Shown here: one piece after another, positions 14,505 to 34,793 of the stretch | Layout: each line of letters starts with the position of its first letter | Numbering within the stretch: the first letter of the stretch is position 1 | From: Paraburkholderia rhizosphaerae | GTDB lineage: Bacteria; Pseudomonadota; Gammaproteobacteria; Burkholderiales; Burkholderiaceae | Direction: 5' to 3' | Length of the DNA: 64,000 nucleotides | NCBI RefSeq assembly: GCF_004366595.1 | Contig: NZ_SORE01000005.1 | Coordinates: forward strand, 186,001-250,000 | Notes under the pieces: generated by a model | Told to the model about the DNA's origin: nothing | What the model saw: the letters and a program-made list of their open reading frames with translations, nothing else | Database searches by the model: none | Made by a program: the position numbers and the translations under genes

Positions 14505-14589
14505 ATGTGCGTTGGCGTTGCTTTGCGTTGCCCTCAAAAATGCATCGCCTGGCATAAAGGAATATCCGCGTCGCGGGCCTGTTATCTGT

Positions 14590-14611
14590 TGTCGGAGAGT
14601 TAATTCCGACA
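14590..14611. repeat. Dyad upstream of folE
   Basis: Perfect 7-base arms TGTCGGA / TCCGACA around eight bases, ending 31 bp before the folE ATG. A plausible operator or small leader hairpin; no T-run follows. Confidence 0.4.
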
Positions 14612-14642
14612 GCAGTGGCTGCCCGATTAACGTGGAGAAGCG

Positions 14643-15299: not shown

Positions 15300-15387
15300 C
15301 CAGTCCCCGGGTGGTGCGGCGCGCGATACCCTTGAAAAACCGCGGACACACCCTGCATGTGCGGACCCAATTATCTGGAGCCATGCG

Positions 15388-18882: not shown

Positions 18883-19063
18883 GATGTTGCTCCGGCAGGC
18901 AAACGCATCACCGCGGCAACGGTCGCGTCCGCGGCTGTCGACGCCGGGACTACGCAGTTGCTTCTTATGAACGGACGCGCATGCAACCTGTTACGAGAGG
19001 CGATAATCCCTGTGCGATGGCGGTGACCGCGTAACACGGCATCGTCGGTGCACAGGGGACGAT

Positions 19064-19534
19064 TTACCACTTGATCTGCGTGTCAAACGTTCCTGTTTCG
19101 ACAATCTCGAACTTCATTTCGCCGCGGAAAGTGCCTTCGATACGGTAACTGGCCGATGGCACTGAAAACAGGCAATGCGGGCCGCCCGCGACGAAATCCA
19201 TCAGCACTCTTCCGTGACGCCGCAGCCGCACAGCGACGTCCGAAGCGGGCGCGCCATTCTGCTGCGCAAACGTGACGCCAAGATTGAACGGATGTTTCGG
19301 GTCCGGTGACGTGACAGTCTTCTCGAGCCCTGCCTGGCCGCACACGTAGTACAGCATTTCCTGTGCATCGGACTCGGGGCCTGATACGGCTTGCGGCGCG
19401 GACGCGCTTTGAGCGGCGGCAAACGTACAGCCGCACAGCGCGATACCCATCATGACCAGCGTGCACACCTGTCTGGACGGAATTGTAGTTTTGCGAATAT
19501 TTGTACTTGTGATTGCACACCTGACGGCACACAT
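19064..19534 (-). CDS. Predicted secreted protein, unknown function
   Basis: 156 aa. The ATG at 19534 is preceded by GGGAGG with five-base spacing, which excludes the longer open frame to 19792. N-terminal basic stretch, then the hydrophobic core 'VCTLVMMGIALCGCTFAAAQSA', a signal peptide with either AAA|Q cleavage or an irregular lipobox at LCGC. The mature part (about 55-156) looks like a beta-rich transthyretin or carboxypeptidase-regulatory-like domain ('VAVRLRRHGRVLMDFVAGGPHCLF', 'SYRIEGTFRGEMKFEIVETG'). The fold assignment is tentative. Divergent from pgaA across 653 bp. Confidence 0.7.
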   Translation of the reverse strand: MCAVRCAITSTNIRKTTIPSRQVCTLVMMGIALCGCTFAAAQSASAPQAVSGPESDAQEMLYYVCGQAGLEKTVTSPDPKHPFNLGVTFAQQNGAPASDVAVRLRRHGRVLMDFVAGGPHCLFSVPSASYRIEGTFRGEMKFEIVETGTFDTQIKW

Positions 19535-20187
19535 GACGACCTCCCTGGGATCGTGGAAAGGAAAGAATACGAACAGGCACGATAAAACGCAATCGGAAAG
19601 CACCAGCAAAAATTGCTTCATATTATTAAGGGATGCGTAGCATATCTCGATAGGTCTATTTTCACCGTATGGACGGTTGTAACGAAAGGTTACCCGTGTA
19701 AGCGGGTGAGTCGGTTCTCGGTTGTATCGGCTAACGCGGGTGAAACCATGAATCAAAAATGAAACATCTTGGACACTTTTGGCAAAACTCAACGAGTCTT
19801 GTGATCAATGACGCGATTGGCAATGTTCAGCGGCGTCAAAAATAGTACGTATATCGGGTTATCAGTTCGAATGCCTGACGAAGCGTGTGTCCGACCTCGC
19901 TCGATGATCGTCAGTAACACGCACAACATGCACGAGTCTGTTCGTTGTTTCCGGAGCGCCTTCATCGTTGTGTTTTCGTGTAAATCCGTTGATCGCAAAG
20001 GGATGACGATCACGTCGGGGATGTATCGCAAATGAAACGCAAGCATCGCGAAATGACTGTCAATCCTATTTAGGAAAGCGCATGGTTCGGTGTGTGTGTT
20101 GTGGCATAGATGTAGCTTGTACGGAGCGGTCTCAACTCAGGGAAAAGTAGTCCTTCAGAACAATGCACTCAACGTTAAGGACAAATC
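19535..20187. other. 653-bp regulatory spacer upstream of pgaABCD
   Basis: No gene supported. Near the left gene it has two small stem-loops, GTAAC-GAAAG-GTTAC (19679-19693) and ACCCG-N6-CGGGT (19692-19707), sharing two bases so that only one can form at a time. The octamer GCGGGTGA occurs twice, at 19702 and 19736. Nearer pgaA lies a sigma-54-like promoter (20102-20117). The length of the spacer leaves room for enhancer sites of the downstream enhancer-binding protein. Confidence 0.55.
20102..20117 (+). promoter_or_regulatory. Sigma-54-like promoter for pgaABCD
   Basis: TGGCAT-N5-TAGCT with GG and GC exactly 12 bases apart. Predicted start near 20128, about 60 nt before the pgaA GTG. It fits the presence of an enhancer-binding-protein gene (27371-28759) in the same locus. 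The -12 element is imperfect (TAGC for TTGC). Confidence 0.5.
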
Positions 20188-22449
20188 GTGAACGCTCAAC
20201 CAAAGCGTCTGTATGCAGTGCTTGCTCAGCCGAAGAGGCTTCATCCAGCCAACTGCATCACGCTAGCGGCCTGTGCGCCCGTTATGCTGCTGTTTCTTTC
20301 GTCGGTGTGTTCCGCCATGGAGGCGGACAATGGAGGCTCCCGCGAACCCAATGATGTCGCCGAAGCACCGTCGATCACTCAGACTCCAACCATCGCACAA
20401 CCGATTCAGCAAGCTCAGCAACCTGCCGAGCAAATGCCTGAACCGCAGACTCAACAACCGGCGCAGCCGGCTACTCAGCCCGCGACGCCCGATCAGCAAA
20501 CGCCCGGTCAACCTGCTCCGGCGGCCACTCCTGCGCCTCCCACCGGAGCGGGCGGCGCGCAGTCCGCTAGCGCATTGCGCACGGAAGTGTTCGGCCTTGC
20601 TACAGGCGGTGGTGCGGTGCAGGCGCTTGAGGAGGCCAAGGCGCGGCCCGATGTCTTTACGCCAGTAGATATTGCACAACTTGAAGAACTTTCTATTCGT
20701 CAGCAGGTTCGTGGTGGACGCGATAAAGCACGTGCTATGACGAGTCCTGACCGCTTCGATGGGATCGATAGCGCACTTAAGGCGGCGGACAATCTCGAAG
20801 CTCGTCTGCCGGATACACCGGAGTATCAACAGGTGCGTTACGCGCTCGCCGGAGATCGCGTCGTTGCATACGCCGGCCGCGGCGAGATGGAGAAAGCAGT
20901 AACGTCATATGTGTCGATTCCCGCGGACCAGCCGATTTCAGTCGAAGCACTTGCTTCGGCGGGTGAAGCGTATAGCTACCTGAACGAACCGGGTAAAGCG
21001 GAAGTTGCGTATCGACGTGCGATTCAACAGCAAGCGGCAGCGAGTACCGATGTAGCGACTCGCGGCTATCAATACGGCGCGCGGACCCGCCCGATCGACC
21101 TGCGCGAAGGGCTCTTCTATGCGCTGACTGATCAGAACAAATTTGTCGAAGCTGGCAAGGTCCTCGACGATATCGCCGCATCGTTGCCGCCGCCCAACCA
21201 GGTGAGACCATGGGATCTTGCCAACGACGATTATCTGAGGCTCAATCGATTGCGTGCGCAGTATCTGATTTATGTTGGTCAGACGGATGCGGGCCTGGCG
21301 GAGTTGAAGCGCCTTGAAGAACAGGTGCCATTTAGCGCGGAGGTGCGCAACGCGGAAGCGGACGCACAGCTCGGCAAGGGACGCAACCGTCTGGCGAAAG
21401 ATATGTATGTGGCTGCGCTGAACGATCATCCAGACAATATCGAAGCACTCGCGGGGCTCGGACGCACATCGCTCAATACCGGTGACTATGCGAACGCAAC
21501 GGCAATCAACACCGCGTTCGGCAACACGTTTCCCGAGAACGGCTCGGTCAGGAACTTCAAGCGCGATTACGACGCATGGCGTGCACCGACCGTCTCGACC
21601 GAGCTGACTGGCGAGCACGGCGCGGCCGCGATTGCCGATGAGCAGTTCACTGCGGATACCTATATCTACTCGCCGCCGATCTACGACTACTGGCGAGTGT
21701 TTGGGCACAACTTCTATGAGTGGGCGCTGACCGATATCGGCAGGCTACAGCGCATTCGAAACGGTATCGGCGCCGATTTTCGCCGCGGGCCGCTGACCGT
21801 GCAAGGAGAGGTATCGCGTTCGACGGGCGGCGATGGAAGAACGGGAGGCAACGGCCAGGTCGAATACGCAATCAATGACTTTTTCAAGGCGACGGCCGGT
21901 TTTGACAGCGATGCCAACGATCTACCGTCGAAGGCCTACGTTGCTCATATCTGGGGGCGCACAGGGCAGGTTGCATTCACGTATACCGATGGCGATCGTC
22001 GTTCTGCGGACATTGGCTACAACATCGGCCGCTATAGCGACGAGAACTTCCATCAGGAGTTTACGGTCGGCGGTTCGCAACGCTTGTTCACGTTTCCGAA
22101 TCAGCAGATCAATGGGACGCTACGTTTTGGTACCAGCAGCAATACGCTGCAGAACACGCCGTACTTCAGTCCGTCGCGTGATTACTCAGCGGAGGTCGGC
22201 ATGTCGCATCAATGGGCGATATGGAGAAGCGGGGAGCGTTCATTGCTGCAACGTTTTTACATATCGGGAGGCGCATATAACCAACGGGGGTTCGGCACAA
22301 GCGGTTTTTGGGCCGCGCGGCTGGAACATGCATGGACGTTCCACCACGATATCACCTTGACTTATGGCATCGGTGTCGGCCGGCACGCCTATGACGGAGA
22401 ACAGGAACTTTCAGAAACCGCATACGTATTGCTCACCGTACCGTTCTAA
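20188..22449 (+). CDS. pgaA: Poly-beta-1,6-N-acetyl-D-glucosamine export porin PgaA
   Basis: 753 aa from a GTG with AAGGA upstream. Signal region to about residue 43 ('MLLFLSSVCSAMEA'), a Gln/Pro-rich linker (55-125), TPR-containing periplasmic half (about 130-470; 'AEARLPDT' helices, 'PEDN..A'-type repeats) and a C-terminal outer-membrane barrel of about 16 strands ('TADTYIYSPPIYDYWRVFGHNFYEWALTDIG' ... 'YVLLTVPF'). It threads partly deacetylated PNAG across the outer membrane. First gene of pgaABCD; the order and spacing match the E. coli operon. The long Q/P linker is longer than in E. coli. Confidence 0.93.
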   Translation: MNAQPKRLYAVLAQPKRLHPANCITLAACAPVMLLFLSSVCSAMEADNGGSREPNDVAEAPSITQTPTIAQPIQQAQQPAEQMPEPQTQQPAQPATQPATPDQQTPGQPAPAATPAPPTGAGGAQSASALRTEVFGLATGGGAVQALEEAKARPDVFTPVDIAQLEELSIRQQVRGGRDKARAMTSPDRFDGIDSALKAADNLEARLPDTPEYQQVRYALAGDRVVAYAGRGEMEKAVTSYVSIPADQPISVEALASAGEAYSYLNEPGKAEVAYRRAIQQQAAASTDVATRGYQYGARTRPIDLREGLFYALTDQNKFVEAGKVLDDIAASLPPPNQVRPWDLANDDYLRLNRLRAQYLIYVGQTDAGLAELKRLEEQVPFSAEVRNAEADAQLGKGRNRLAKDMYVAALNDHPDNIEALAGLGRTSLNTGDYANATAINTAFGNTFPENGSVRNFKRDYDAWRAPTVSTELTGEHGAAAIADEQFTADTYIYSPPIYDYWRVFGHNFYEWALTDIGRLQRIRNGIGADFRRGPLTVQGEVSRSTGGDGRTGGNGQVEYAINDFFKATAGFDSDANDLPSKAYVAHIWGRTGQVAFTYTDGDRRSADIGYNIGRYSDENFHQEFTVGGSQRLFTFPNQQINGTLRFGTSSNTLQNTPYFSPSRDYSAEVGMSHQWAIWRSGERSLLQRFYISGGAYNQRGFGTSGFWAARLEHAWTFHHDITLTYGIGVGRHAYDGEQELSETAYVLLTVPF

Positions 22450-22467
22450 CGTTTTGGGGGTTCGACG

Positions 22468-24555
22468 ATGCAGTCGCGCAGACGTTTTATTTGTGGTTGT
22501 CTCGGAGCGATGGCAGGTTGTTCGTTGTTTTCTGGGCTGGCGCCAGCGAAGCTGGTTGATATTCTTCCGCCGTCGGACCCAGCCGACGGCAAGACTTTCA
22601 GGGTCATCTGCTTTCACGATGTGCGGGATAACCTGCTGGCTTCGTTTAACTCGCAAAACATGATCGACCCGTACGCTGTCGATACGGGAACCTTGACTTC
22701 GATCTTTTCATGGCTTCAGAGCAGCGGCTATCATCCGATCACGGTGAAGGATGTCGAAGCATCGCGCAACGGCGGCAAGCCGTTGCCGCCACGCGCAGTT
22801 ATGCTGACTTTCGACGACGGCTTTCGTAGTCACTACACGAAAGTGTTGCCGCTGCTCGAGCGTTTCAAATTCCCGGCGGTGATGGGTATCGTTACATCAT
22901 GGGTCGATACGCCGCCGAACCAGAAGATCCGTCTTGCGATCAACCTCGAAGTACCGAGGGACACGTTCATGTCATGGGATGAGGTCTCACAGCTGGCGAA
23001 ATCGCCGCTAGTGGAACTCGCGTCGCACACGCACGACCTGCATCACGGCGCCATCGCGAATCCTCAGGGCAATGAATTGCCGGCTGCGACTTCGCACCTG
23101 TATTTGCAGGATCAGAAGCGCTACGAAACCGATGAGGAATTCGAAGCGCGCGTGCAAAACGATCTGTCCGCGTGTCTTCGCCGCTTGCATGATCATGCGG
23201 GCGTCACGATTCGTTCGATGGTCTGGCCTTATGGCGCCGAGAACCAGCCGGTGCGCAAGATTTCCAGATCGCTTGGCATGCACACACAATTCAGCCTCGA
23301 AGCAGGGCCGAATACGCCTGATGTGCCGCTTGACCGGCTGCGTCGCAATCTGATGACCTATGACGTCGACGTCGGCGGGTTCGAGCGGGCGATGCGTGAG
23401 CCGGCGACCAACCGCGGTCAGGTCAATCCGGTTGAACGCGTGGTGCGCGTCAGTCTGGACGATGTTTATGATCCGGATGGCGCCGTGCAGGAAAAGAAAC
23501 TCGGCGTTCTGATCCAGCGCATTTATGACATGCGGCCGAGTTCCGTTTACCTGCAGGCCTATTCCGATCCGAACAATACCGGCGCTGCGGAAGCGCTGTA
23601 CTTCCCGAATCGCCATCTGCCGATGCGCGCCGATCTGTTCTCGCGTGCCGCGTGGCAGTTGAATACGCGCTCGCAAGTGCAGGTCTACGCATGGATGCCG
23701 TTGCTGGCGTTCCGCTTGCCCGCGGACCAGGCGGGGCGTGTCGAACTGGTGACGGCAGCCGCGGGCGCGCCCGCCGACCGGCGTGCAGCGAAGATGGTTC
23801 GCTTGAGTCCATTCGATCCAGCGGCGCAGACGATGATCCGCGAAATCTATGCAGATATGGGCAAGTACTCCGCGTTTACCGGGCTGCTGTTCGGTGGAGA
23901 CGCGATGCTCGACGATTACGAGGACGCCGGTCGCCATGCGGCGCAAACGTTTCAACGCTGGGGGCTGCCTGCCGATATCGGCACGATCCGCTCGACCCCT
24001 GAGTTAATGACACGCTGGACGGCCGCGAAGACCAGGTATCTGGTCGATTTTTCGATGGAACTGGAGAAGATTGTTCTGGACAGCCAGAACGGCGGCGACG
24101 TGCTGACCGCTCGCGATCTGTATGCGGATGTATTGCTCGACCGGGCGGCGGAAGCGCGTTTTTCGCAGAACTACGATTCGTTCCTGCATGCGTACGACTT
24201 CGTTGCGTTGCTCGCGATGCCACCCGGTGAGCGTTACGGAAGCATCAATGGTCGGCTCGACTCGCTCGCGGATATTACGTCGACCGTACCGGACGGTTTG
24301 CGCAAGACGGTGTATCAGTTGCCAGTGATCGATCCGCAGACCGGCCAGGATATTTCGTCTGACCGTCTGCTCGAAGAAATGCGCTATCTGCGGCAGCGCG
24401 GCGTGGTGAACTTCGGCTACTACCCGGACCGGTTCTCTGCGGATATGCCTCAAATGGTGACGATGCGCGATGTGATGTCGCTGCGCGCACGGCTCGATCC
24501 GACCTCGATCAACGCGCTCCTTCAGGCGCAACAGCGTAAAGGAGTGACCCGCTAA
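22468..24555 (+). CDS. pgaB: Poly-beta-1,6-N-acetyl-D-glucosamine N-deacetylase PgaB
   Basis: 695 aa periplasmic lipoprotein. It starts 'MQSRRRFICGCLGAMAGC', a Tat-like RRRF followed by a lipobox with Cys18. The CE4 deacetylase domain (about 40-290) shows 'TFDDG' (Asp116/Asp117) and 'SHTHDLHHG', which supply the base and the metal ligands. The C-terminal glycoside-hydrolase-like GHL13 domain (about 310-660, 'SLDDVYDPDG', 'YAWMPLLAF', 'FGGDAMLDDYED') binds and cleaves PNAG. Partial deacetylation is needed for export through PgaA. The stop shares one base with the pgaC start. Confidence 0.94.
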   Translation: MQSRRRFICGCLGAMAGCSLFSGLAPAKLVDILPPSDPADGKTFRVICFHDVRDNLLASFNSQNMIDPYAVDTGTLTSIFSWLQSSGYHPITVKDVEASRNGGKPLPPRAVMLTFDDGFRSHYTKVLPLLERFKFPAVMGIVTSWVDTPPNQKIRLAINLEVPRDTFMSWDEVSQLAKSPLVELASHTHDLHHGAIANPQGNELPAATSHLYLQDQKRYETDEEFEARVQNDLSACLRRLHDHAGVTIRSMVWPYGAENQPVRKISRSLGMHTQFSLEAGPNTPDVPLDRLRRNLMTYDVDVGGFERAMREPATNRGQVNPVERVVRVSLDDVYDPDGAVQEKKLGVLIQRIYDMRPSSVYLQAYSDPNNTGAAEALYFPNRHLPMRADLFSRAAWQLNTRSQVQVYAWMPLLAFRLPADQAGRVELVTAAAGAPADRRAAKMVRLSPFDPAAQTMIREIYADMGKYSAFTGLLFGGDAMLDDYEDAGRHAAQTFQRWGLPADIGTIRSTPELMTRWTAAKTRYLVDFSMELEKIVLDSQNGGDVLTARDLYADVLLDRAAEARFSQNYDSFLHAYDFVALLAMPPGERYGSINGRLDSLADITSTVPDGLRKTVYQLPVIDPQTGQDISSDRLLEEMRYLRQRGVVNFGYYPDRFSADMPQMVTMRDVMSLRARLDPTSINALLQAQQRKGVTR

Positions 24556-25808
24556 TGACGCACGATCTGATCGCCCGTCTACAGGATTTCATTTTCTTCT
24601 ACCCGTTCTTTATGTCGTATTTCTGGATGATTGGAGGCGTCGTTCACTATCTCGCGCTGGAGAAGGGCCGGACCCGGTCGCATCGGGCACTCGTCGCAGC
24701 CGGCATGCCGAAGGTGTCGGTGGTTGTGCCGTGCTTCAACGAGGAATCGAATGTTCGCCGCGTGATCTACCACCTCGCGAATCTCGGCTACGCGAATTAC
24801 GACATCATCGCGGTGAACGACGGCAGCAAGGACGGCACGGGTGCGATTCTGAACGAACTAGCCAAGGAGATTCCACGCCTGACCGTGATCCATCATTCGA
24901 AGAACGAAGGGAAGGCGATCGGCCTGACGACCGCTGCAACCGTTAGCGATGCGCCATACCTGATGTGTATCGACGGCGACTCGCTGCTTGGTCGCGATGC
25001 GATCGAATGGATGCTGGAGCACTTCATTTCCGATCCGAACGTTGGGGCGGTCACCGGGAATCCGCGCATCCGCACGCGCACGTCGTTGCTCGGGCGGATG
25101 CAGGTCGGCGAATTTTCGTCGATTGTCGGGTTGATCAAGCGTACGCAGCAGGTGTATGGACGCATTTTCACGGTGTCCGGTGTGATTACGATGTTCCGCA
25201 AGGCGGCGCTTGCGGATGTCGGTTACTGGAGCTCGGACATGCTGACCGAGGACATCGATATCAGCTGGAAGCTGCAGACCCGCGACTGGCGGGTCGCATA
25301 CGAGCCGCACGCGCTAAGCTGGATTCTGATGCCCGAGACGCTGACTGGTCTGTACCGTCAGCGTCTGCGCTGGGCGAAAGGCGGCATTCAGGTGCTGATG
25401 AAGTACGCACCGGAAATCGCGAAGCCGTCGATGATCATGATGTGGCCGTTGTTCCTCGAATATCTGGTAGGCATTGCATGGGCGTATTCGATGTCGTTCG
25501 TGATGGTGCTCGGCCTCGTCAACATGCTCGTGCCGTTGCCGCCCGACTGGCACATTTCGCTGCTGCCGCACTGGCACGGCATGCTGCTTGTCGCAACCTG
25601 CGTGCTGCAACTGATCATCGGCTGCCTGATCGATCGCCGTTACGACGAGAAGTTGTTGTTCTATTTCATGGATACCGTGTGGTACCCGCTTGCTTTCTGG
25701 TTGATCAACATGATCACCACTGTCGTTGCATTGCCTTCCATCGTCCTGCGCCGGCGCGGCAAGCGCGCGGTATGGACAAGCCCAGACCGAGGAATCCAGC
25801 ATGAATAA
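24555..25808 (+). CDS. pgaC: Poly-beta-1,6-N-acetyl-D-glucosamine synthase PgaC
   Basis: 417 aa processive family-2 glycosyltransferase of the inner membrane. N-terminal TM, then the GT-A core with 'VVPCFNEESNVRRVI', the DxD-type 'CIDGDSLLG', 'MLTEDIDISWKL' (TED catalytic Asp) and 'YRQRLRWAKGG' (QxxRW), then two or more C-terminal TMs ('YLVGIAWAYSMSFVMVLGLVNMLV', 'MLLVATCVLQLIIGCLI'). Polymerises UDP-GlcNAc; in E. coli PgaC and PgaD together are activated by cyclic di-GMP. Starts at TAATG with pgaB and overlaps pgaD by eight bases, so it is tightly coupled. Confidence 0.95.
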   Translation: MTHDLIARLQDFIFFYPFFMSYFWMIGGVVHYLALEKGRTRSHRALVAAGMPKVSVVVPCFNEESNVRRVIYHLANLGYANYDIIAVNDGSKDGTGAILNELAKEIPRLTVIHHSKNEGKAIGLTTAATVSDAPYLMCIDGDSLLGRDAIEWMLEHFISDPNVGAVTGNPRIRTRTSLLGRMQVGEFSSIVGLIKRTQQVYGRIFTVSGVITMFRKAALADVGYWSSDMLTEDIDISWKLQTRDWRVAYEPHALSWILMPETLTGLYRQRLRWAKGGIQVLMKYAPEIAKPSMIMMWPLFLEYLVGIAWAYSMSFVMVLGLVNMLVPLPPDWHISLLPHWHGMLLVATCVLQLIIGCLIDRRYDEKLLFYFMDTVWYPLAFWLINMITTVVALPSIVLRRRGKRAVWTSPDRGIQHE

Positions 25809-26427
25809 CGCCCCAGTCATCGACCTGTCTCTACGCACGCCCAGTCAGATCATCGCGGATAAAGGAGTCAAACTAGGTCTGATGCAGGTCGTGTGGTTTC
25901 GCCTGATACGTCCTGCAACCGTGGGTTCGTTGTGGGCGGCGATTGGTGTCTATACGTATCGGTATCTGATGCCGTTCAATGAAAACGAACTGCCGCTCGA
26001 GCAGTTGCTGTCGTATATGGCCGCGATTGGGACCATCGCCGCCGCGCTAGTCGTGTGGATGATCGTGTCGCGCGTTGCTCACCCGTTCGCATCGCGTTCG
26101 CGCATGCAACGGCTGTTGCGGAGAACGGCAGGCCTGACCGTCGAGCCTGGTCCGTTCGCGGCCGCGTCATTGCGAACGCGTGGCGCGGTCGCGCGGGTCT
26201 TTATCGCATCGCACGATGCCAACGGGTTTATTGCCGCGCTGCGCGCGATGTCCGAGCCTGAAGTGGAGGGCGACGACGACGGACCGGCCGACGTACCGAT
26301 CGGCGTTGACCCCGCCCATGCGCGCTGGTACGACGTGCAGGATGGGGCGATGCACATGCCGGTCAATATGCCGATCCGGGTTCGGTATGTAATGGGGAGT
26401 CGTCCGATGACCGATACAGAGCTTTGA
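25801..26427 (+). CDS. pgaD: PNAG biosynthesis accessory protein PgaD
   Basis: 208 aa, longer than the E. coli protein (about 137). Two TMs (about 36-55 and 70-91) and an extended cytoplasmic C-terminus. The N-terminal 'APVIDLSLRTPSQIIADKG' and 'WFRLIRP' are recognisable PgaD features. It pairs with PgaC to form the cyclic-di-GMP-responsive synthase. The ATG at 25801 follows 'GAGGAATCCAGC'. The last 65 bases overlap, tail to tail, the 3' end of the Crp-like gene on the other strand. The C-terminal extension (about 100-208) is of unknown role. Confidence 0.88.
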   Translation: MNNAPVIDLSLRTPSQIIADKGVKLGLMQVVWFRLIRPATVGSLWAAIGVYTYRYLMPFNENELPLEQLLSYMAAIGTIAAALVVWMIVSRVAHPFASRSRMQRLLRRTAGLTVEPGPFAAASLRTRGAVARVFIASHDANGFIAALRAMSEPEVEGDDDGPADVPIGVDPAHARWYDVQDGAMHMPVNMPIRVRYVMGSRPMTDTEL

Positions 26428-27178
26428 GGACCCGGTAACATTCGCACGAACGCTGCTCGAGCGCCGCGCGTTGCTGGACCATCACGCCATGTCGATCGTG
26501 CGTGACGATGCCCGCGACGCCGAGCGCGTGCAACGCGGAGCGCACCGAGCGCGCGGTTACGCCAAGTGCACGCGACAGCGACACGGCCGAGGTTTCGATG
26601 CGTGCGCAAGGGTGGTTGTCCGCGAGCGTGAGCAGACGGCATGCAACCTGCTGTTCGATCGAATGGAGTCTCGCACATGAGGCCATTTGCGACATTTCGG
26701 CGAACATCAGTTCGACGTACTGCAACATGCGCGCTTCGACCCATGGCTCTTCTTTCAGGCAGGCGAGCAACGACGCTTCACTGCAGCGAAACGCCGTGCC
26801 CGATGCTGTGACGATAGTGCGAAACGGCATCGACCCGGTACGCGTGACAACCGGCCAGCCCGCGAAGCCGTTGCGGCCGATGGTCACGAGTTCGATCGAG
26901 CGGCCGTCGTCGAGTATGCACTCGTACGCGAGACGGGCCGTTAGCGGGAAATACACGTGATGAAAGACTTCGTTGCAATCGCATACCACCTGGCCGGCAT
27001 GCAGGTCGATGCAAACGAAGTCGTCAACGCGTTCGAGCAGGTGCAGGCGGCGCGACAGCAACGTGAGCACGCTGTCGTAGTCGGCAAAGCGCACGCCGGA
27101 CGTGACGGATTGACCGGACACGAGGGGTTCGGACGCATGCTTCATCTGGGCAGGGGCAAGCAGCTTGTCTCGATTCAT
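26363..27178 (-). CDS. Crp/Fnr-family transcriptional regulator
   Basis: 271 aa. An N-terminal cyclic-nucleotide-type beta-barrel (about 45-165; 'VFHHVYFPLTARLAYECILDDGRSIELVTIGRNGFAG') and a C-terminal winged helix (about 180-255; 'QQVACRLLTLADNH', 'VSLSRALGVTARSVRSALHALGVAGIVTHDRHGVMV'). The phosphate-binding Arg-Ser pair of true CRP is not evident, so the effector is uncertain. The long N-terminus may begin later, but no better ribosome site was found. It is divergent from the enhancer-binding-protein gene and overlaps pgaD by 65 bp, placing it within the PNAG locus; BcsR/ClrA-like regulation of EPS is plausible but not shown. Confidence 0.85.
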   Translation of the reverse strand: MNRDKLLAPAQMKHASEPLVSGQSVTSGVRFADYDSVLTLLSRRLHLLERVDDFVCIDLHAGQVVCDCNEVFHHVYFPLTARLAYECILDDGRSIELVTIGRNGFAGWPVVTRTGSMPFRTIVTASGTAFRCSEASLLACLKEEPWVEARMLQYVELMFAEMSQMASCARLHSIEQQVACRLLTLADNHPCARIETSAVSLSRALGVTARSVRSALHALGVAGIVTHDRHGVMVQQRAALEQRSCECYRVLKALYRSSDDSPLHTEPGSAY

Positions 27179-27370
27179 GGTGCTTTGCTCGTGAGATGTT
27201 GAGCGCGCGCAGCGAACACGCGGCGGCGGGACGGAGTGTCATTGTACGTTTGTCCGGGTTGCGAAAGAAAGTCATTGGGCGCGCGTATTGCTCGACGCGA
27301 ACCGAACGCATTGATTCGTTGTTGTGGCAACGACAGTGAATGAAAGCGGACTCGTGAGGAGGATGACGTC

Positions 27371-28759
27371 GTGCCGAAAAGGAACCGTGATGCGCCGGCG
27401 CTCGTATACGCGTCGGTCTCACATGACCCGAGCCTGTGCGACCGTCTGCGCGAAGCCGGATGGTCAGTCGAGCTGATCGGCAGTGTGCATGAGCTGGAGC
27501 GCACATTGCGGCACGCGCCGGCGCCCAATGTGGGCCTGCTCGAGCTCGGCGACGAGCACGCCGGCACGATGGGCGCAATTGTCGAGCACTGCGTCGGCGC
27601 GCCGCAAGTGCACTGGATCGCGGCCGTCACGACAAACCAGTTGCGGCGGGCCGCAACGCGCGAGTTGATCGGGTGCTACTGCCTCGATTATGTGTTTTTG
27701 CCATATGCGTTCGATGTCGTCGAGTCTGCGTTGCGGCGTGCGTTACGTCTTGCTTCGCTGCTGCGGGCCGTTCCGCATGCGCCGTCGGTGGCCGGCGGTC
27801 AAGCCATCGTCGGGCGCAGCGAACCGATGCAGGCATTGCAGCGTGAAATGCAGAAAGTTGCCTATACCGACGCGCCGCTCTTTATCGCCGGCGAATCGGG
27901 CAGCGGCAAGGAACTGACCGCGCGCGCTGTTCACGACGCTTCGCCCCGCGCGCAGGGGCCGTTCGTCGCGATCAACTGCTGCGCGATTCCGCCGACGCTC
28001 GTGCAAAGCGAACTGTTCGGCCACGAGCGCGGCGCGTTCACCGATGCCGAGCGCCGCAAGATCGGCCATATCGAGGCGGCCAATGGCGGCACGTTGTTTC
28101 TCGACGAAATAGGCGATCTGCCGCTCGAATGCCAGGCGACGCTGCTGCGTTTCGCTCAGGACGGCACGATCCAGCGGCTCGGTAGCGATGTATCGATTCC
28201 ACTCGATGTGCGCATCATTTCGGCGACTCATGTCGATCTCGAAGACGCCGTGCGCGGCCAGTCGTTCCGCTTCGATCTCTACCACCGGCTGTGCGTGCTG
28301 CGCATCGATGTGCCGCCACTGCGCGAACGCAGCACCGACATCCATTTGCTCGCGTTTCATCTGCTGGGTCTGTACGCGGGCGAACGAAAGTCGCGGATTC
28401 ACGGTTTCACCCCTTCCGCATTACGCGCGATGCTGCTGCACGACTGGCCGGGCAATGTCCGGGAACTTGCGAACAAGGTGCGGCGCGCGATCGTCATGGC
28501 CGACGGCGCGTATATCCGCGCCGTCGATCTCGGCCTTGCAGAACCGCCGGCGCGCCGCGCGTTGACACTTGCCGACGCGCGCGATCAAGCGGAGCGCAAC
28601 TGCCTGATTGAGGCGCTGATCGCGCATGGCAATCGGTCAGGCGAGGTGGCGGAAGAGCTCGACATATCACGCATAACGCTTTATCGACTCAGAATGCGGC
28701 ACGGGCTGCAGGATATCGCCGGGCTTGTGCCACCAAATTTTCCGGAGCGGCGCAAGTGA
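27371..28759 (+). CDS. VpsR/BerB-like sigma-54-type transcriptional activator
   Basis: 462 aa from a GTG with GAGGAGG eight bases upstream. Residues about 1-125 form a degenerate receiver in which Glu58 occupies the phospho-Asp position. Residues about 140-370 form an AAA+ domain with Walker A 'GESGSGKE', Walker B 'GGTLFLDEIGDL' and 'LYHRLCVLRIDVPPLRER'. The C-terminal Fis-type helix-turn-helix (about 405-450) reads 'NRSGEVAEELDISRITLYRLRMRHGL'. The sigma-54-contact loop is GAFTDA rather than GAFTGA. VpsR (Vibrio) and BerB (Burkholderia cenocepacia) are cyclic-di-GMP-responsive exopolysaccharide activators of this architecture. It is followed by a GTGA-overlapping gene. Likely controls pga (inference). 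Confidence 0.88.
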   Translation: MPKRNRDAPALVYASVSHDPSLCDRLREAGWSVELIGSVHELERTLRHAPAPNVGLLELGDEHAGTMGAIVEHCVGAPQVHWIAAVTTNQLRRAATRELIGCYCLDYVFLPYAFDVVESALRRALRLASLLRAVPHAPSVAGGQAIVGRSEPMQALQREMQKVAYTDAPLFIAGESGSGKELTARAVHDASPRAQGPFVAINCCAIPPTLVQSELFGHERGAFTDAERRKIGHIEAANGGTLFLDEIGDLPLECQATLLRFAQDGTIQRLGSDVSIPLDVRIISATHVDLEDAVRGQSFRFDLYHRLCVLRIDVPPLRERSTDIHLLAFHLLGLYAGERKSRIHGFTPSALRAMLLHDWPGNVRELANKVRRAIVMADGAYIRAVDLGLAEPPARRALTLADARDQAERNCLIEALIAHGNRSGEVAEELDISRITLYRLRMRHGLQDIAGLVPPNFPERRK

Positions 28760-30135
28760 GACCGATTCAAATCCCGAGCCCCGTGGGGCGTGCAATGCGT
28801 ATGCCGTTATCGGTAATCGGCATCGCCATGTTGTTATTGCCGATGTCTGCCGCGGTGCGCGCGCAAGCGCCGCAGGCCGTACCGATCGTTGCAGCCGCAT
28901 CGACTCCCGCAGCGGCGCCTGCCTCCACGTCGGCCCCGACTCGCGGATCTCATCCGGCTTCGACCGCCTTTGTCGCGCCGGTCGGCGCAGTAATGGCCGT
29001 GCCGGCGCCGGGCGTTCGGGATGAGCGCAGTTTCATGCATGGCATCGGCCAGGCAGATGGGGGTGATGGCAAGACGTGGGTGTTCTTCAGCAGTTCAGGC
29101 GTGCCGCCGCACGGCGCGGGCCGCAATGGCAGCTGGCCGCACGACGTCTATGTCGGGCAGTGGGAACCGGGTACTGCGCATCTGTCGAACGTGCGCATCT
29201 TTATCAAACGGCCCGAAGCGCAGGAGCCGGCATCGGTCGCGCAGAACACGAAGGGGACCATCTTCATCACGTTTGAGGATGGCTGGAATGCGCCGCGCAA
29301 CGTCAGCCAGCGCTATGGCGTGTATCGGCAAAACCTCAAGCCGATCCGGCCTTACCCGAGAGACGTCGAGTCCGGCGGGCATTCAGGGCACGTCGCGGCG
29401 GTCGGCGACCAGTTCGTCGTGTTTTATTCGGCTGACTGGGTGCAGGGCGGCGGCGTCGACAATCTCGGCACAGGGGGCGGTGTCTACGCGAACGTCTATG
29501 ACGGAAATGGCCGCTTTTTACGGCACGTGAACGTCGCAGCTCACGTGCGCGAATGGTGGCCGGTCGTTGCCGGTTCGCCGACCCAGGCGCTCTTTGTCTG
29601 GCAAAAGTACATTCCAGGCAGCACGATCGCGTCGTTGCAATACGCGTTGTTCGATCCGCGTACCGGCAAGCTGACGCGTACACAGGAAAGCGTCGATCCG
29701 TACCGCGTGCAGTACTACGTTTATGCGAGCGCCTATGTGCCCGCTGTCGACCGGTTCGTTGTGCTCGCAACACTCGATACCGGTCGCGCCGTGGCCTTTC
29801 TGGTCGATGGACAGGGACGCCGAACGGCCGAACTGGACTGCCTGCCTGCGCTGGTGCGTGAAAGCAATATTGCCGTCGAAGGCAATGCGGTGTTCGTCCC
29901 TACTCAGGACGGCCGGATGATGACACTCGGGCTTGAAGGCGACCACATCGTGCTGCGCGGCACGCAACGCGCGCCGTTCGCATGGGGCAATACCGGCGTA
30001 ACCGGAATCGTGAGCGGAGATATGGTGCATTTTGTATCGCTGTCGCCCGACGGTCTGCGTGAAGCGGACTTCAGCACGCAAAAGCAGATAGCGGCGAGCC
30101 CGGGTGATCGTTGCGTGGTGCGGGCATCGAAATAA
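28756..30135 (+). CDS. Predicted secreted protein, possible beta-propeller
   Basis: 459 aa. Starts at the GTGA overlap with the activator gene, so translation is coupled. A signal peptide ends near residue 37 ('AMLLLPMSAAVRAQA'), then an Ala/Pro/Thr linker (38-85) and a large beta-rich domain with regularly spaced 'W.FFSSSG', 'VYVGQWEPGTAHLSNVRIF', 'GTIFITFEDGW', 'HVAAVGDQFVVFYSADW', 'QALFVWQKYI', 'VDRFVVLATLDTG', 'GNAVFVPTQDGRMMTLG' blades. The blade periodicity suggests a 6- or 7-blade propeller; I do not recognise a named family. Position between a matrix regulator and glmS points to a secreted role in the PNAG matrix. Confidence 0.75.
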   Translation: MRPIQIPSPVGRAMRMPLSVIGIAMLLLPMSAAVRAQAPQAVPIVAAASTPAAAPASTSAPTRGSHPASTAFVAPVGAVMAVPAPGVRDERSFMHGIGQADGGDGKTWVFFSSSGVPPHGAGRNGSWPHDVYVGQWEPGTAHLSNVRIFIKRPEAQEPASVAQNTKGTIFITFEDGWNAPRNVSQRYGVYRQNLKPIRPYPRDVESGGHSGHVAAVGDQFVVFYSADWVQGGGVDNLGTGGGVYANVYDGNGRFLRHVNVAAHVREWWPVVAGSPTQALFVWQKYIPGSTIASLQYALFDPRTGKLTRTQESVDPYRVQYYVYASAYVPAVDRFVVLATLDTGRAVAFLVDGQGRRTAELDCLPALVRESNIAVEGNAVFVPTQDGRMMTLGLEGDHIVLRGTQRAPFAWGNTGVTGIVSGDMVHFVSLSPDGLREADFSTQKQIAASPGDRCVVRASK

Positions 30136-30221
30136 TCAATTCGATCAGGGAAGACGGAGGGTTCACGTGATGTAACGCAGTTCTCATTAGAGCAATTTGA
30201 GCAGTCCCAGTGGAGGCGAAT

Positions 30222-32039
30222 ATGTGTGGAATCGTGGCAGGAGTAACCCAGCGCAATATTGTGCCGATGTTGCTGGACGGGCTGAAACGCCTCGAATATC
30301 GCGGCTATGATTCGTGCGGTGTCGCGGTGCTTCAACAGGGCGCGCCACGGCGCGTGCGGACGCTCGCGCGGGTGCGGGCGCTCGAGACCGACGTGACCGC
30401 CGAAGCGCTGGACGGGTCGACCGGCGTCGCACATACGCGCTGGGCCACGCACGGCGTACCCGCAATTGATAATGCTCATCCGATTTTTTCGCGGGACCAG
30501 ATCGCGGTGGTGCATAACGGCATTATCGAAAATTACGAGGAACTGCGCGAATCGTTGCGCGCGCAAGGGTACGAATTCAATAGCCAGACTGACACGGAAG
30601 TGATTGCGCACCTGATTCACAGTCACTACTGCGGCGACCTGCTCGCCGCCGTGCACAACACCACTCGCGTGTTGCGCGGCGCCTATGCGATTGCTGTGAT
30701 TTGCCGGGACGAACCACGGCGCGTGATTGGCGCGCGGCAAGGTTCGCCGCTCGTCGTCGGACTGGACGACGACAGCGCATTTCTCGCGTCCGATACGTTT
30801 GCGCTCGCCAATTGCGCGCGGCGGTTTATTTATCTCGAAGATGGCGACATTGCCGATATCGTGCGCGGCCATGTCCGCATCATCGACCCGACCGGCGGTG
30901 ATGTTGCGCGCGACGTCCGTGCGGTCGCCAAGCAGGAGGACGACGCGGAACTCGGCGCGTACCGCCACTATATGCAGAAGGAAATTTTCGAGCAGCCGGT
31001 CGCAGTCGCGCGCACCGCGGGGCATGTTCATTCGCTTGATACCGAGCCGTTCGGCACAGCCGCACCCGAGATGCTGACGGGCATCGAACGCGTGCTAATG
31101 CTCGGCTGCGGGACGAGCCACTACGCGGCGCTTACCGCGCGCGGCTGGTTCGAGCGTCTCGCCGGTGTCACCGCGCACGCGGAGATATCGAGCGAGTTCC
31201 GCTATCGCGATCATGTGAAGGAGCGCGGCACGCTCGTCGTGCCGATCTCGCAGTCGGGCGAGACCGCCGATACGCTTGCCGCGCTACGCTACGCGCAGTC
31301 AATGGGGGAAGCGCTCACGCTCACCCTCTGTAATGTCGCGGCAAGCGCGATGGTCCGGCAAAGCCGATGGGCGTTCATTACCCAGGCTGGGCCGGAAATC
31401 GGCGTCGCGTCGACGAAGGCATTCACGACACAACTGGCCGCGCTGTTTCTGCTTGCGCTGACGATTGGCCGGCGGCGCGGCCGCATCAACGACGACGAGG
31501 CCGTCGTCTATCTGCGCCAACTCGCGGGCTTGCCCGACGCATTGCGCAGCGTGCTCGCACGCGAGCCGCAAATCATGGCGTGGGCGGAGGAGCTGCATCG
31601 CAAGGAGAATGCGCTATTCCTCGGGCGCGGACTGCATTTTCCGATCGCGCTCGAGGGTGCCCTTAAGCTCAAGGAGATTTCATATATCCATGCCGAGGGC
31701 TATCCGGCGGGCGAACTGAAGCATGGGCCGCTTGCGCTCGTCACCGAAGCGATGCCGGTAATTGTCACCGCGCCGAACGACGTGCTGCTCGACAAACTCA
31801 AGTCAAACGTCCAGGAAGTGCGCGCGCGCGGCGGTCAGCTTTATGTCATCGCGGATACCGATACGCAGTTCGCGAGTTCGCCCGGGGTGCGGGTGATCCA
31901 GATGCCTGCGTACTATGGGCCGCTATCGCCTGTACTGCACGTGATCGCGTTCCAGTTGCTCGCTTATCACGTCGCGTGTCTACGCGGCACCGACGTTGAC
32001 AAGCCGCGCAATCTGGCGAAATCGGTGACGGTTGAATGA
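30222..32039 (+). CDS. glmS: Glutamine--fructose-6-phosphate aminotransferase (isomerizing)
   Basis: 605 aa. The start was moved to 30222 so that the mature N-terminus is Cys, as required for the Ntn glutaminase nucleophile ('MCGIVAG'); GGAGG lies five bases upstream. The glutaminase domain (1-235) has 'TRWATHGVP' and '[12 protein letters not shown]'. Two SIS domains follow ('[17 protein letters not shown]', '[16 protein letters not shown]') and the C-terminus ends 'NLAKSVTVE'. It makes glucosamine-6-phosphate, the entry to UDP-GlcNAc, which is the PgaC substrate. Its place 86 bp after the secreted-protein gene suggests a dedicated, co-regulated copy beside a presumed housekeeping glmS elsewhere (inference). 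Confidence 0.95.
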
Positions 32040-32043
32040 CCGC

Positions 32044-32862
32044 TCAGTGGTGCAGATAGGTGGTCGATGTGCGCGGCGGCGCAACGGAGGACTCGCCGTG
32101 CCACTGCATCGGCCCATCAAAGTCGCGTTGTACGCGGCGCGGGCCGTTTGCTGCCGCGCCGCCGAACGGATCGATTGGCGGCGCTTTCGTCGCGTACTTG
32201 CGCACGCAGCCCCGCTGGTCCTTGCTCGCGCACGGATTGGCTGCCCGCGCCGAGGCTTCGTCGCGGGTAGCGCCTGACGCGGGCCGTGTCTTCTCACGTG
32301 CCGACCGCGTGACCGCCGCGGTACCGTCCTTCCCGGATGTGAGCTGTCTGTCCGCGAGCGGATCGGCGTCGGGCGCGGATGCGGCGGCCGGTGCGGCCAC
32401 TGCAGCCGGCAATTCGGGGAACGCCGCGAGATCTCCCGGCAACCACGCCATTCCCATCACTGTGCGCGGCATCAACGCTTCGGCGCGGCGCAGTGTGTCG
32501 GGATTTCCCATTCCCACGATCGCGACGTAGCCGCCGAATACCAGGACGAATGCGCTGACCGCTACGCCCAACCCCATCCATGCCGCCGCGTTATTGTTCG
32601 GATCAATAGGATCGGAAAAAGGGCCGTTGCTAAACGGATGATTCGCAGCACCAGGTATTACGTATCCGATCGGCCTCCGCGGAATGATAATTTCATCAGA
32701 CCGTTTCTTTTCGTGAGATGTTTCAGGTAGCGGATCGCCGTGGTCCAGGCTCACGCATTCGTCGCGATCGAACTGGGCGCGATCTAACGGGGAACGATTG
32801 CGGTGCAACAGGTGGTTGGAAACGGATGCGAGGTAACTACCGATGTGAACGGGGATTTTCAT
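32044..32862 (-). CDS. Predicted single-TM protein, unknown function
   Basis: 272 aa, convergent with glmS (four bases between stops). A charged N-terminus (1-94) with an 'EIIIPRRPIGYVIPGAANHPFSNGPFSDPIDPNN' segment, one TM (about 95-117), then Ala/Pro-rich disorder and a C-terminal 'NPCASKDQRGCVRKYATKAPPIDPFGG' with two Cys seven residues apart. Start preceded by GACGACGAG. It resembles the other flanking gene (18220-18882) in layout: one TM, disordered outside part, late Cys pair; but I see no clear sequence homology. No known family. Confidence 0.65.
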   Translation of the reverse strand: MKIPVHIGSYLASVSNHLLHRNRSPLDRAQFDRDECVSLDHGDPLPETSHEKKRSDEIIIPRRPIGYVIPGAANHPFSNGPFSDPIDPNNNAAAWMGLGVAVSAFVLVFGGYVAIVGMGNPDTLRRAEALMPRTVMGMAWLPGDLAAFPELPAAVAAPAAASAPDADPLADRQLTSGKDGTAAVTRSAREKTRPASGATRDEASARAANPCASKDQRGCVRKYATKAPPIDPFGGAAANGPRRVQRDFDGPMQWHGESSVAPPRTSTTYLHH

Positions 32863-33371
32863 CTCGTCGTCCTGCGTTTTAGTTACTTTTTCACTCTAGC
32901 AGACCCTCGTCGTTTTCACGACAAAAGATTCGACGTTTTGCGGTCTTGGCCCCCTAAAAAAATTATATAGGGATGCTACGTAACTCCTTCCATTCAGACC
33001 CTAAACGAACGCGATGCGAGGTCATAATTTCAGAACTGACCAGAGCATTTTATGTTCCTGAGGGTTTATTTTTCCGATAAGCGCGGGTATTCTCCAGGCT
33101 CTTTTGTCTGTCGTTAGGTGCCGTTAACTAGCTCAGCGGCTAGGAAACGATGCCTGCCACCCCGAAAGGAACGAAGGTTCGTGCCGGTTTTTGACGGCGC
33201 GGACTCCTGAATTCCTTTCATTCAGCTTCGCCAACTTCACCGAATTGGCGTTTTTTTCCTCGGCATCGATCCGAGTGGCGGAGCTTTTTTCCTTGAAAAA
33301 GGAAATCGGACAAATTTACTCGTCCACGTCAATCGGATTCGAGCGGCCATTTATCATAGGAATACTGAATT
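32863..33371. other. 509-bp spacer holding a structured leader with terminator
   Basis: The left third (32880-33080) is AT-rich and probably holds promoters for both divergent genes. From about 33120 on, several stems appear: CTAGC-N6-GCTAG (33128-33143), GCCG-N8-CGGC (33183-33198), then the intrinsic terminator at 33229 and a second stem CTCGG-N7-CCGAG (33259-33275) with T6 at 33285. This is more structure than a simple leader needs. It did not match any riboswitch class I know. Confidence 0.5.
33229..33257 (+). terminator. Intrinsic terminator inside the leader of the discoidin-domain gene
   Basis: CGCCAA, ten-base loop, TTGGCG, then seven T. It lies 115 bp upstream of the start of the next plus-strand gene, and no plus-strand gene lies between it and glmS, so it can only act on a transcript that leads into that gene: an attenuator arrangement. 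Confidence 0.65.
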
Positions 33372-34793
33372 TTGCGCCTCACCTCTCCCGCCCTTCGTAT
33401 CGCCGCAGCTGGTTTTGCCCTCTCCGCACTTGCCGTACAGGTCCAGGCGGCCTGTGTGAACAGCCCCGCTGACCAGTCAAGTTCCACTTTGCCTTCGACG
33501 CTCACCGGCAAGCTCGCGTACCACAGCTACGTCAGCTACGGCGACGGCACGAGCCAGCTTTTTATTTACGACTTCACGGCACGCACGCTCACGCAAGTGT
33601 CGAAAAGCTCGTGGGGCATCAAAGATCCGATGAATGCGGTGTTCAGTCCTGACGGCAAATGGATCGCGTTCATGGGCGTCACGAACAACGCGTGGAACGT
33701 GTTCATCTGGCAGGTCGGCTCGACTAGCGCGCCGATCAACATGACGAACAGCACTGGCCAGACCCGCAATGAAGACCCGAAATTCAGCAGCGACGGCAGC
33801 AAGCTGTTCTTCAAGCAGAACGGCGACGTGATGGAAGCGACGCTGTCGTTCACGAGCGGTGGTCCGCAGTTCACGTCGGTGGTCGATGTGACGAACACGG
33901 CGCCGGGCATCGAAAGCTCGATGCCGTTCCCGTCACCGGACAGCAGTGCGGTGTACTTCGCGACCGGCACCGGCGCGGGTCTTGGCCTGTACAAGGAAAC
34001 CATCGCGACGCATCAGAAGGTCGCGTTCGACGCGCCGCAGGGGCTGCAAACCTACTATCCGATGGTGCGGAAGGACGGTACGGTGTTCTACGCGCGTTGG
34101 CTCAGCGCTGCCAGCCAGCTCGATCAGATCTATTCGAAGGTCAACCCGGGCGACACGCCTAACCAGCTATCGATCAACGACTGCCGCGGCAATAACTCGG
34201 ATCCGGCGCCGGTTGATAACACGAACTACCTGTTCATGTCGTCGACGACGGATGGCGGGTATCAGCTGTACCTCGCGGATGTCAGCACCGGCAAGCGCTG
34301 GAATTTGTCGCAACTCGGCGTGAACTCGGACAAGACGAAGGCAAAGCTTGGCTCGAACTACTGGAGCGGCACGACCACGTCGACACCGGGCAAGACGCTG
34401 CTGTCGCAGGGCAAGCCCGCAACCGCTTCGTCGAGCTACAACTCGAGCCTGACGGCGGACAAGGCGTTCGACGGCAATACGTCGAGCACGCGCTGGGATT
34501 CGATCGAAGGCAATTCGGCGGGCACGCAGTGGATCACGGTCGATCTCGGCGCGGTGAAGACCGTCACTGCAGTCGACCTGTATTGGGATGCGGGCGCGAG
34601 TGCGTATCAGATCCAGACGTCGAACGACAACGCGAACTGGACCACGATCTACTCGACGTCGAGTGGTGTCGGCTCGGGTCACGTGTCGCTTGCGAACCTG
34701 AAGGGCAGTGGCCGCTATGTGCGCATGTTCGGCACGAAGCGCGCGACCCCGTGGGGCTACTCGCTCGACGAGATGCAGGTGTGGGGTTCGTAA
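33372..34793 (+). CDS. Secreted beta-propeller (PD40-like) protein with C-terminal F5/8C discoidin domain
   Basis: 473 aa from a TTG; the protein then starts with a clean signal peptide (1-26, 'AAAGFALSALAVQVQAA'). Residues about 45-320 contain TolB/WD40-like propeller repeats ('AVFSPDGKWIAFMG', 'PKFSSDGSKLFFKQ', 'PFPSPDSSAVYFATG', 'LYLADVSTGKRWNLSQL'). Residues about 340-473 are an F5/8 type C domain: 'LLSQGKPATASSSYNSSLTADKAFDGNTSSTRWDS...WITVDLGAVKTVTAVDLYWD' to 'GRYVRMFGTKR..PWGYSLDEMQVWG', which binds carbohydrate or cell surfaces. Likely an exported glycan-binding protein; its place beyond the PNAG genes suggests a matrix protein. Controlled through the leader at 33120-33290 (inference). 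Confidence 0.87.
   Translation: MRLTSPALRIAAAGFALSALAVQVQAACVNSPADQSSSTLPSTLTGKLAYHSYVSYGDGTSQLFIYDFTARTLTQVSKSSWGIKDPMNAVFSPDGKWIAFMGVTNNAWNVFIWQVGSTSAPINMTNSTGQTRNEDPKFSSDGSKLFFKQNGDVMEATLSFTSGGPQFTSVVDVTNTAPGIESSMPFPSPDSSAVYFATGTGAGLGLYKETIATHQKVAFDAPQGLQTYYPMVRKDGTVFYARWLSAASQLDQIYSKVNPGDTPNQLSINDCRGNNSDPAPVDNTNYLFMSSTTDGGYQLYLADVSTGKRWNLSQLGVNSDKTKAKLGSNYWSGTTTSTPGKTLLSQGKPATASSSYNSSLTADKAFDGNTSSTRWDSIEGNSAGTQWITVDLGAVKTVTAVDLYWDAGASAYQIQTSNDNANWTTIYSTSSGVGSGHVSLANLKGSGRYVRMFGTKRATPWGYSLDEMQVWGS

Follow-up and report, generated by a model that had tools for sequence, protein, structure and literature searches.

The polymer poly-beta-1,6-N-acetylglucosamine (PNAG) is common in biofilms, and the machinery behind it is usually described as four genes, pgaABCD. 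How far does this system extend when its operon stands among regulators, a precursor enzyme and secreted proteins? The question is raised by a 64-kb stretch (hereafter the window) of the 7.5-Mb genome of Paraburkholderia rhizosphaerae. Among the named genomes scanned, Paraburkholderia humisilvae LMG 29542 (L051) and P. solisilvae LMG 29739 (L052) come closest to it in gene content and identity. A first-pass annotation of the window had proposed a self-contained module with its own activator, precursor enzyme and glycan-binding matrix proteins. Here we find that an apparently undescribed fifth protein, predicted to be secreted and named SecP below, tracks one branch of PNAG synthases almost perfectly, even where the two genes do not stand side by side. 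With moderate confidence, which applies jointly to the core, the accessory genes, the clade-specific control and the surface partner, we read the locus as a complete PNAG synthesis and export operon carrying three added layers.

The pga operon and the distribution of SecP

The core begins with pgaA (20188..22449, plus strand) rather than at 19535, where the locus had earlier been taken to start. Its product, the PNAG export porin, scores 372.3 bits against TIGR03939 (cut-off 366.65) and also exceeds the cut-off for PF21197, PgaA_barrel. On the same strand are pgaB (22468..24555), which encodes an N-deacetylase with a C-terminal hydrolase-like domain (TIGR03938 at 769.7 bits and PF14883, both above cut-off, together with PF01522), and the synthase gene pgaC (24555..25808; TIGR03937 at 597.2 bits, cut-off 422). 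These three proteins pass curated cut-offs inside one operon and keep the E. coli-type order. The gene at 25801..26427 (plus strand, 208 amino acids) is assigned to pgaD by position and synteny, and its product had no match in Pfam or NCBIfam. All genes named at the locus are present with open frames, and together PgaABCD would make, partly deacetylate and export PNAG. The difference from the E. coli-type operon lies in the additions: many Burkholderiaceae add secP and glmS, in an order that varies by class, and one clade adds Crp/VpsR-type genes. A literature search, mostly at abstract level and with most subscription journals outside its reach, found no description of glmS or of a propeller protein in pga operons. 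The accessible main text of a classification of pga operons does not include glmS (PMC7112194), the available part of another paper mentions pgaABC in B. terrae (PMC4122924), and that of a third held nothing of use here on pga genes (PMC8231446).

Across 117 genomes of the genus, pgaC was found (1e-60) in 27 genomes, at 30 loci. By PgaC identity to the window's protein, 15 loci form class I (81-100%, window counted) and 14 form class II (62-64%), while the remaining locus, G089, stands at 42%. SecP precedes glmS in class I, and glmS precedes SecP in class II. In the window, SecP occupies 28756..30135 (plus strand), and its start overlaps the stop of the preceding activator gene in an exact GTGA, as the first-pass annotation had noted. 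The protein had no match over threshold in Pfam, NCBIfam or PHROGs, its profiles met PDB sequences only at E 0.2 or worse, and a scan of viral contigs returned no relative. The breadth of this family without a name is given by genome scans only.

In all class I and II loci (29/29) SecP is no more than 4 kb from pgaC, and the genus search did not find it at G089; a match in G034 (E 7.8e-4, query residues 13-106) was set aside as a chance hit, and G086 carries a SecP fragment only, with no pgaC match. The wider sample of 220 family genomes holds SecP in 44, PgaC in 59 and both in 43. Every family genome with a PgaC at 60% identity or more to that of the window also has SecP (43/43), compared with 1 of 177 others; that single genome (G165) lacks PgaC, and its SecP gene is broken across two frames. 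There is overlap between the genus, family and handle samples (G149 and G331, for instance, share their coordinates), and these co-occurrence counts ignore phylogeny. Within the 43, the distance between the two genes is at most 4 kb in 28, and in 15, all from genus g24, they are on separate contigs. Because these 15 genomes carry SecP and PgaC on different contigs, the tie does not appear to be one of linkage only; contigs of the draft genomes end close to pga in several cases, so that a different contig is not itself proof of distance.

The association extends to Burkholderia. When named genomes were scanned using alignment A1 (best 80 of 88 loci), 28 of the loci were titled Burkholderia, of which 26 read pgaABCD-glmS-SecP and two (L084 and L096) are cut by contig ends. 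The pgaC is class I-like (78-81%) in 25 of the 26 and class II in L087. Members of the Burkholderia cepacia complex also carry SecP. Further away, Bradyrhizobium diazoefficiens SZCCT0423 (L061:8854-15846) has a SecP 69% identical to the window's on the same strand as, and ahead of, a pga operon whose PgaC is at 43%. We read this SecP, from the two identities and its placement, as a probable horizontal arrival beside a resident pga operon.

Several observations weigh against a tight bond between SecP and PNAG. Sixteen family genomes have a PgaC at 43-51% and no SecP. Among 149 Pseudomonas genomes, PgaC is present in 59 and SecP in one, the centre genome of the sample, leaving 58 of the 59 PgaC-bearing genomes without it; SecP as a requirement for PNAG in general was rejected on this count. 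The Pseudomonas genomes that do have SecP also have PgaC (3/3), which is weak given the base rate of 59/149 (0.06, phylogeny ignored). Lastly, 18 SecP genomes were probed with TIGR03937, and among the matches listed PgaC exceeded the cut-off in 10, all Proteobacteria by title; the other 8, titled as other phyla or unclassified and including several metagenome-assembled genomes (MAGs) of unstated completeness, had no PgaC over it. The idea of SecP as confined to genomes with PNAG was rejected on the basis of these 8.

One MAG without PgaC (L124:1313-15886) encodes two neighbouring SecP relatives set among genes for an exo-glucosaminidase-like GH2 protein, a polysaccharide deacetylase-domain protein, an MFS protein, a ROK kinase and a TonB-receptor plug protein. 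The GH2 protein is close to the solved exo-beta-D-glucosaminidase 2vzs (E 7e-179), and the gene set looks like a glucosamine-polymer utilisation locus. Two Lachnospiraceae relatives (L128:8959-10161 and L129:5703-6899) are 32-33% identical and come from genomes without PgaC over the cut-off. No clear pathway emerged from the genes around SecP in L126, L127 and L130, the one exception being a weak glycoside-hydrolase-like protein in L130.

Predicted fold and possible roles of SecP

The predicted structure of SecP is a seven-bladed propeller whose fold matches PLL-like lectins. Across 26 members, from Burkholderia to Lachnospiraceae, ten charged or His residues are invariant, all of them in the first half of the protein and none repeated blade by blade. 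Their placement in the first half suggests one active site, and the conservation looks more like that of an enzyme than that of a lectin. A comparison with the PLL/PHL/BP39L seven-bladed lectins gave identities of 8-11%, conserved residues that are not blade-repeated, and no sequence relationship. Set against a single site in the first half are near-invariant charged residues in the second (R249, R284 and E285, A2 numbering).

A bolder and somewhat doubtful reading makes SecP the founder of an enzyme family of its own, whose members would be secreted seven-bladed propellers that process beta-1,6-linked polymers of N-acetylglucosamine or glucosamine. The family would have evolved with one PNAG-synthase branch of Burkholderiaceae, moved horizontally to other pga operons, as in Bradyrhizobium, and been put to use in unrelated bacteria for the digestion of glucosamine polymers. 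Within the PNAG system SecP would act on the polymer itself, most likely by trimming or clearing it through one active site, either in the periplasm or at the surface; otherwise it would bind it. AlgL, BcsZ and PslG trim or clear polymer in other synthase-dependent systems, and their fold probably differs from that of SecP. The likeness is in the idea of the role only, that is, a secreted protein conserved in a synthase-dependent operon, and PgaB already holds the hydrolase-like domain PF14883.

A possible, somewhat doubtful alternative is that SecP is a lectin-like matrix protein without catalysis, its propeller binding PNAG at several sites and either cross-linking the polymer or tying it to the cell. 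Of the two secreted proteins at this locus earlier described as glycan-binding matrix proteins, SecP looks more like an enzyme, and the propeller-discoidin protein, discussed below, is a putative binder that co-occurs with class I pga. If SecP either cuts or binds PNAG, it would offer a new handle on biofilms.

The genomes of the window and of P. humisilvae each contain a second SecP, of class II, adjoining the last 43-50 codons of a glmS gene. These are scars of a lost class II pga operon, consisting of an open SecP frame and a glmS remnant (L018:9968-11377, G000:C13; L047:9701-11080, G055). Alignment to L035, a class II locus that is intact, shows that the scar lacks about 8.6 kb, which corresponds to pgaABCD and most of glmS. 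The ratio of non-synonymous to synonymous substitution rates (dN/dS) of the orphan SecP is 0.11, indicating purifying selection, with 0.08-0.14 for linked SecP copies. Retention of a selected SecP in two genomes after the loss of that copy's own pga genes is a further point against the bond with PNAG; both genomes keep class I pga. The selection fits service to the remaining class I PNAG system, and other roles are possible.

glmS and the propeller-discoidin gene

The glmS gene beside pga (30222..32039, plus strand) is a second genomic copy. Its product scores 767.4 bits against TIGR01135 (cut-off 418, equivalog level) and has the GATase domain and two SIS domains, PF01380 matching in two stretches. 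The first-pass annotation had taken this gene for a source of precursor and had stated that its reading would fail if no other glmS existed in the genome; another does exist, among the matches listed, at G000:C6:277454-279268, and is 66% identical. The pairing of a precursor enzyme with a secreted partner also holds up across the genus, where glmS is linked in 26/29 class I and II loci (among the matches listed), alongside SecP in all of them. GlmS would raise glucosamine-6-phosphate for uridine diphosphate-N-acetylglucosamine while the operon is on. Counting against a fixed role is its absence from beside pga in 3 of the 15 class I loci; the loci without a linked copy are G051, G010 and G032, and the contig of G032 ends about 4 kb after SecP.

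In a 50-row tree, pga-linked glmS copies occupy three separate positions, one for class I, another for class II together with Cupriavidus, and a third for Burkholderia. Forcing all of them into a single clade costs 324 log-likelihood units and is rejected (approximately unbiased test, p-AU 7e-6). The trees took 79 and 50 of the 108 extracted rows, and the Burkholderia copies are on a long branch, so that their exact place is unsure; the 79-row tree carried a long-branch warning at this group and labelled the pga-linked L155 (identical to L103) as "other". Class I Paraburkholderia and Burkholderia have similar pgaC (78-81%) and differ in both glmS lineage and gene order. Since the linked copies fall in three places and one clade is rejected, glmS appears to have joined pga operons more than once, or to have been replaced in place. 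Such repeated recruitment suggests that PNAG production is limited time and again by the supply of precursor. Separately, one genome with class II pga also has a class I-type glmS (L050:8545-10362, G005:C48) at 76% identity to the window's copy, and the 17 kb retrieved there contains no pga genes.

The variability of these loci could also be explained by a passive cluster, in which glmS and secP are carried along by a replicon that moves or rearranges and play no part in PNAG. Flanking genes outside the core do differ between loci, glmS can be absent, and additional copies of glmS are frequent across the genus (among the matches listed). Against this stand the tie of SecP to PgaC across contigs in the 15 g24 genomes, its presence in two pga classes and beside a distant pga operon in Bradyrhizobium, the repeated joining of glmS, and dN/dS values of 0.04-0.14 for the seven genes tested. 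We therefore consider a passive cluster very improbable and continue to favour accessory genes that serve the PNAG operon.

The last gene of the locus (33372..34793, plus strand) encodes a probably secreted protein with a PD40 propeller and an F5/8-type C (discoidin) domain (PF00754, PF22633 and PF07676), and it had no PHROGs match. The gene is present (1e-40) in 11 of the 117 genus genomes. Each of these 11 belongs to the 15 that have class I pga, and the gene is found in 0 of the 102 others (Fisher 1.6e-12, phylogeny ignored). It lies beside pga in 6 of the 11 and on another contig in 5, of which G015 is incomplete. These off-contig relatives (G062:C79, G038:C8, G063:C7, G018:C9 and G015:C99) are 62-71% identical. 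Given the co-occurrence, we regard the protein as probably partnering class I PNAG at the cell surface, and both glmS and the propeller-discoidin gene are present as the first-pass annotation had listed them. In Burkholderia sp. Ac-20379 (L084:132-2315), a relative (62%) adjoins SecP on the opposite strand.

The RpoN-type site and the linked regulators

Upstream of pgaA is an RpoN-type -24/-12 site, TGGCATAGATGTAGCT (GG-N10-GC; 20102..20117, plus strand), which is the sole match to TGGYAY-N5-TMGCT in the 64 kb. One match compares with 0.21 expected, and 18 of 100 shuffles had at least one. In the five related loci that carry a VpsR-type gene, TGGCAY-N5-TMGCT is kept at about -88 before pgaA. 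An alignment of these five upstream regions with MAFFT also showed an invariant 27-bp block (19744..19770, plus strand) and a second conserved block (20015..20059, plus strand) containing AAATGAAAC, which it shares with the first; both are candidate activator-binding sites. The region before pgaA (19000-19999) has 53% GC and forms a lower-GC leader.

Within 28 genus loci (0.53 Mb, both strands), the pattern has 18 matches, all upstream of pgaA: 4/4 VpsR-bearing loci, 14/14 class II loci and 0/10 class I loci without VpsR. With the window added, 19 of 29 loci have the site ahead of pgaA, and it is found nowhere else within them. When an independent consensus was compared with permuted motifs, the latter did at least as well in 1/400 cases for four VpsR-bearing loci (window included), 0/400 for eight class II loci, 0/400 for six class I loci without VpsR and 242/400 for five other pga lineages. 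Several points temper this result. The pattern was framed from these same loci, so the counts are descriptive; none of the ten class I loci without VpsR carries the site, with G099 having a one-base near-match at the same place; and nine Burkholderia loci barely beat permuted motifs (46/400 at least as good). We do not claim sigma-54 sites in class I loci without VpsR, where the best sites are at varying places, some inside a gene, despite the 0/400 in the subset of six.

The form of the site is that of the berA RpoN site in B. cenocepacia, where, in the available part of the source, mutation or deletion cut reporter expression (PMC5552954). In the same system, as far as the accessible texts describe it, BerB is an enhancer-binding protein (EBP) with a GAFTGA loop that drives berA, and BerA is a CRP/FNR-family effector of cyclic di-GMP (PMC5552954, PMC3584217). 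Because a berA-like site stands before pgaA in class II and in the VpsR-bearing loci, pga is likely to be under RpoN control both in class II and in the clade of the window, and the EBP serving the site may be the linked copy or an unlinked paralogue. The site offers a direct way to test how PNAG is switched on in the genus.

Two regulator genes lie between pgaD and SecP in the window. The first, Crp/FNR-like, was expected after pgaD and is indeed there (26363..27178), on the minus strand, converging on pgaD with a 65-bp overlap of its 3' end; it is antisense, and its domains PF00027 and PF13545, in that order, score E ~4e-4, both below the Pfam cut-off. The second (27371..28759, plus strand) encodes a VpsR/BerB-type enhancer-binding activator with PF00158, PF20161 (60.7 bits, cut-off 23.7) and PF02954, its AAA+ domain PF00158 having Walker A and its HTH_8 being present. 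The GAFTGA loop is not exact, reading GAFTDA in the window and in L019-L021 and GAFTNA in L022. Among the matches listed, orthologues of this protein (at least 89% identity; next best 53%) occur in 5 of the 117 genus genomes, and in all five the gene sits with the Crp-like gene between pgaD and SecP. In G099, which has no VpsR, a C-terminal remnant of the Crp-like gene remains at the same place, a sign that this genome has probably lost the pair. On the figure of five genomes, VpsR was rejected as part of a general pga module. What had been proposed as a self-contained module with its own activator is thus kept in part: SecP and glmS are conserved neighbours, the berA-like site makes such control plausible, and the Crp/VpsR pair is a clade-specific addition.

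In this clade, an RpoN-type promoter would be driven by a BerB/VpsR-family activator whose own linked copy stands beside the Crp-like gene, an arrangement resembling the BerB-BerA pair. The available text on the BerB-BerA-RpoN system, which serves the Bep polysaccharide of Burkholderia cenocepacia, shares with the window the EBP AAA+ core, an adjoining Crp-like gene and the shape of the RpoN-type site (PMC5552954). Here, however, the site precedes the polymer operon rather than the Crp-like gene, and the linked EBP has GAFTDA; the likeness is by family and arrangement, not by orthologue assignment. With VpsR of Vibrio, the protein shares PF20161 and the AAA+ domain. It differs in that the nearby operon is for PNAG rather than VPS and has an RpoN-type site, whereas VpsR is said, in the part of the source available, not to need RpoN (PMC5552954).

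These features leave room for a plausible, if less than likely, alternative in which the linked VpsR-type protein has no use for RpoN and works independently of it in the manner of VpsR, or represses, and unlinked GAFTGA paralogues read the site. The linked copies have GAFTDA (four) or GAFTNA (one), whereas both paralogues at G000:C12 have GAFTGA, and the class II operons have the RpoN-type site with no linked activator. In the accessible literature, a list of loop variants said to retain sigma-54 activation includes GAFTDA, and DVU2106 of Desulfovibrio, with GAFTDA, is listed with sigma-54-regulome target operons (PMC4641369), which together with the single position of the site in all five loci with the linked gene argues for a linked copy that uses RpoN. 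VfmH of Dickeya also has GAFTDA, and in the part of that report available a pull-down did not find sigma-54 and dependence was left open (PMC10714721). We infer that the regulators and the other parts of the locus would act together, with the linked activator perhaps serving the pga promoter in this clade. The two GAFTGA VpsR/BerB-type paralogues (L195:5613-7013 and 14348-15859, G000:C12) lie about 7.3 kb apart on opposite strands, facing away from each other, and are candidate readers of the pga RpoN site.

Two other genes were noted around the locus. Between glmS and the propeller-discoidin gene, an open reading frame on the minus strand (32044..32862) encodes a protein with one hydrophobic segment, judged by eye, and no family; among the loci compared, it is restricted to those bearing VpsR. 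Upstream of the pga locus, a gene at 15388-16422 of the window encodes a trypsin-PDZ (HtrA/Deg-type) protease.

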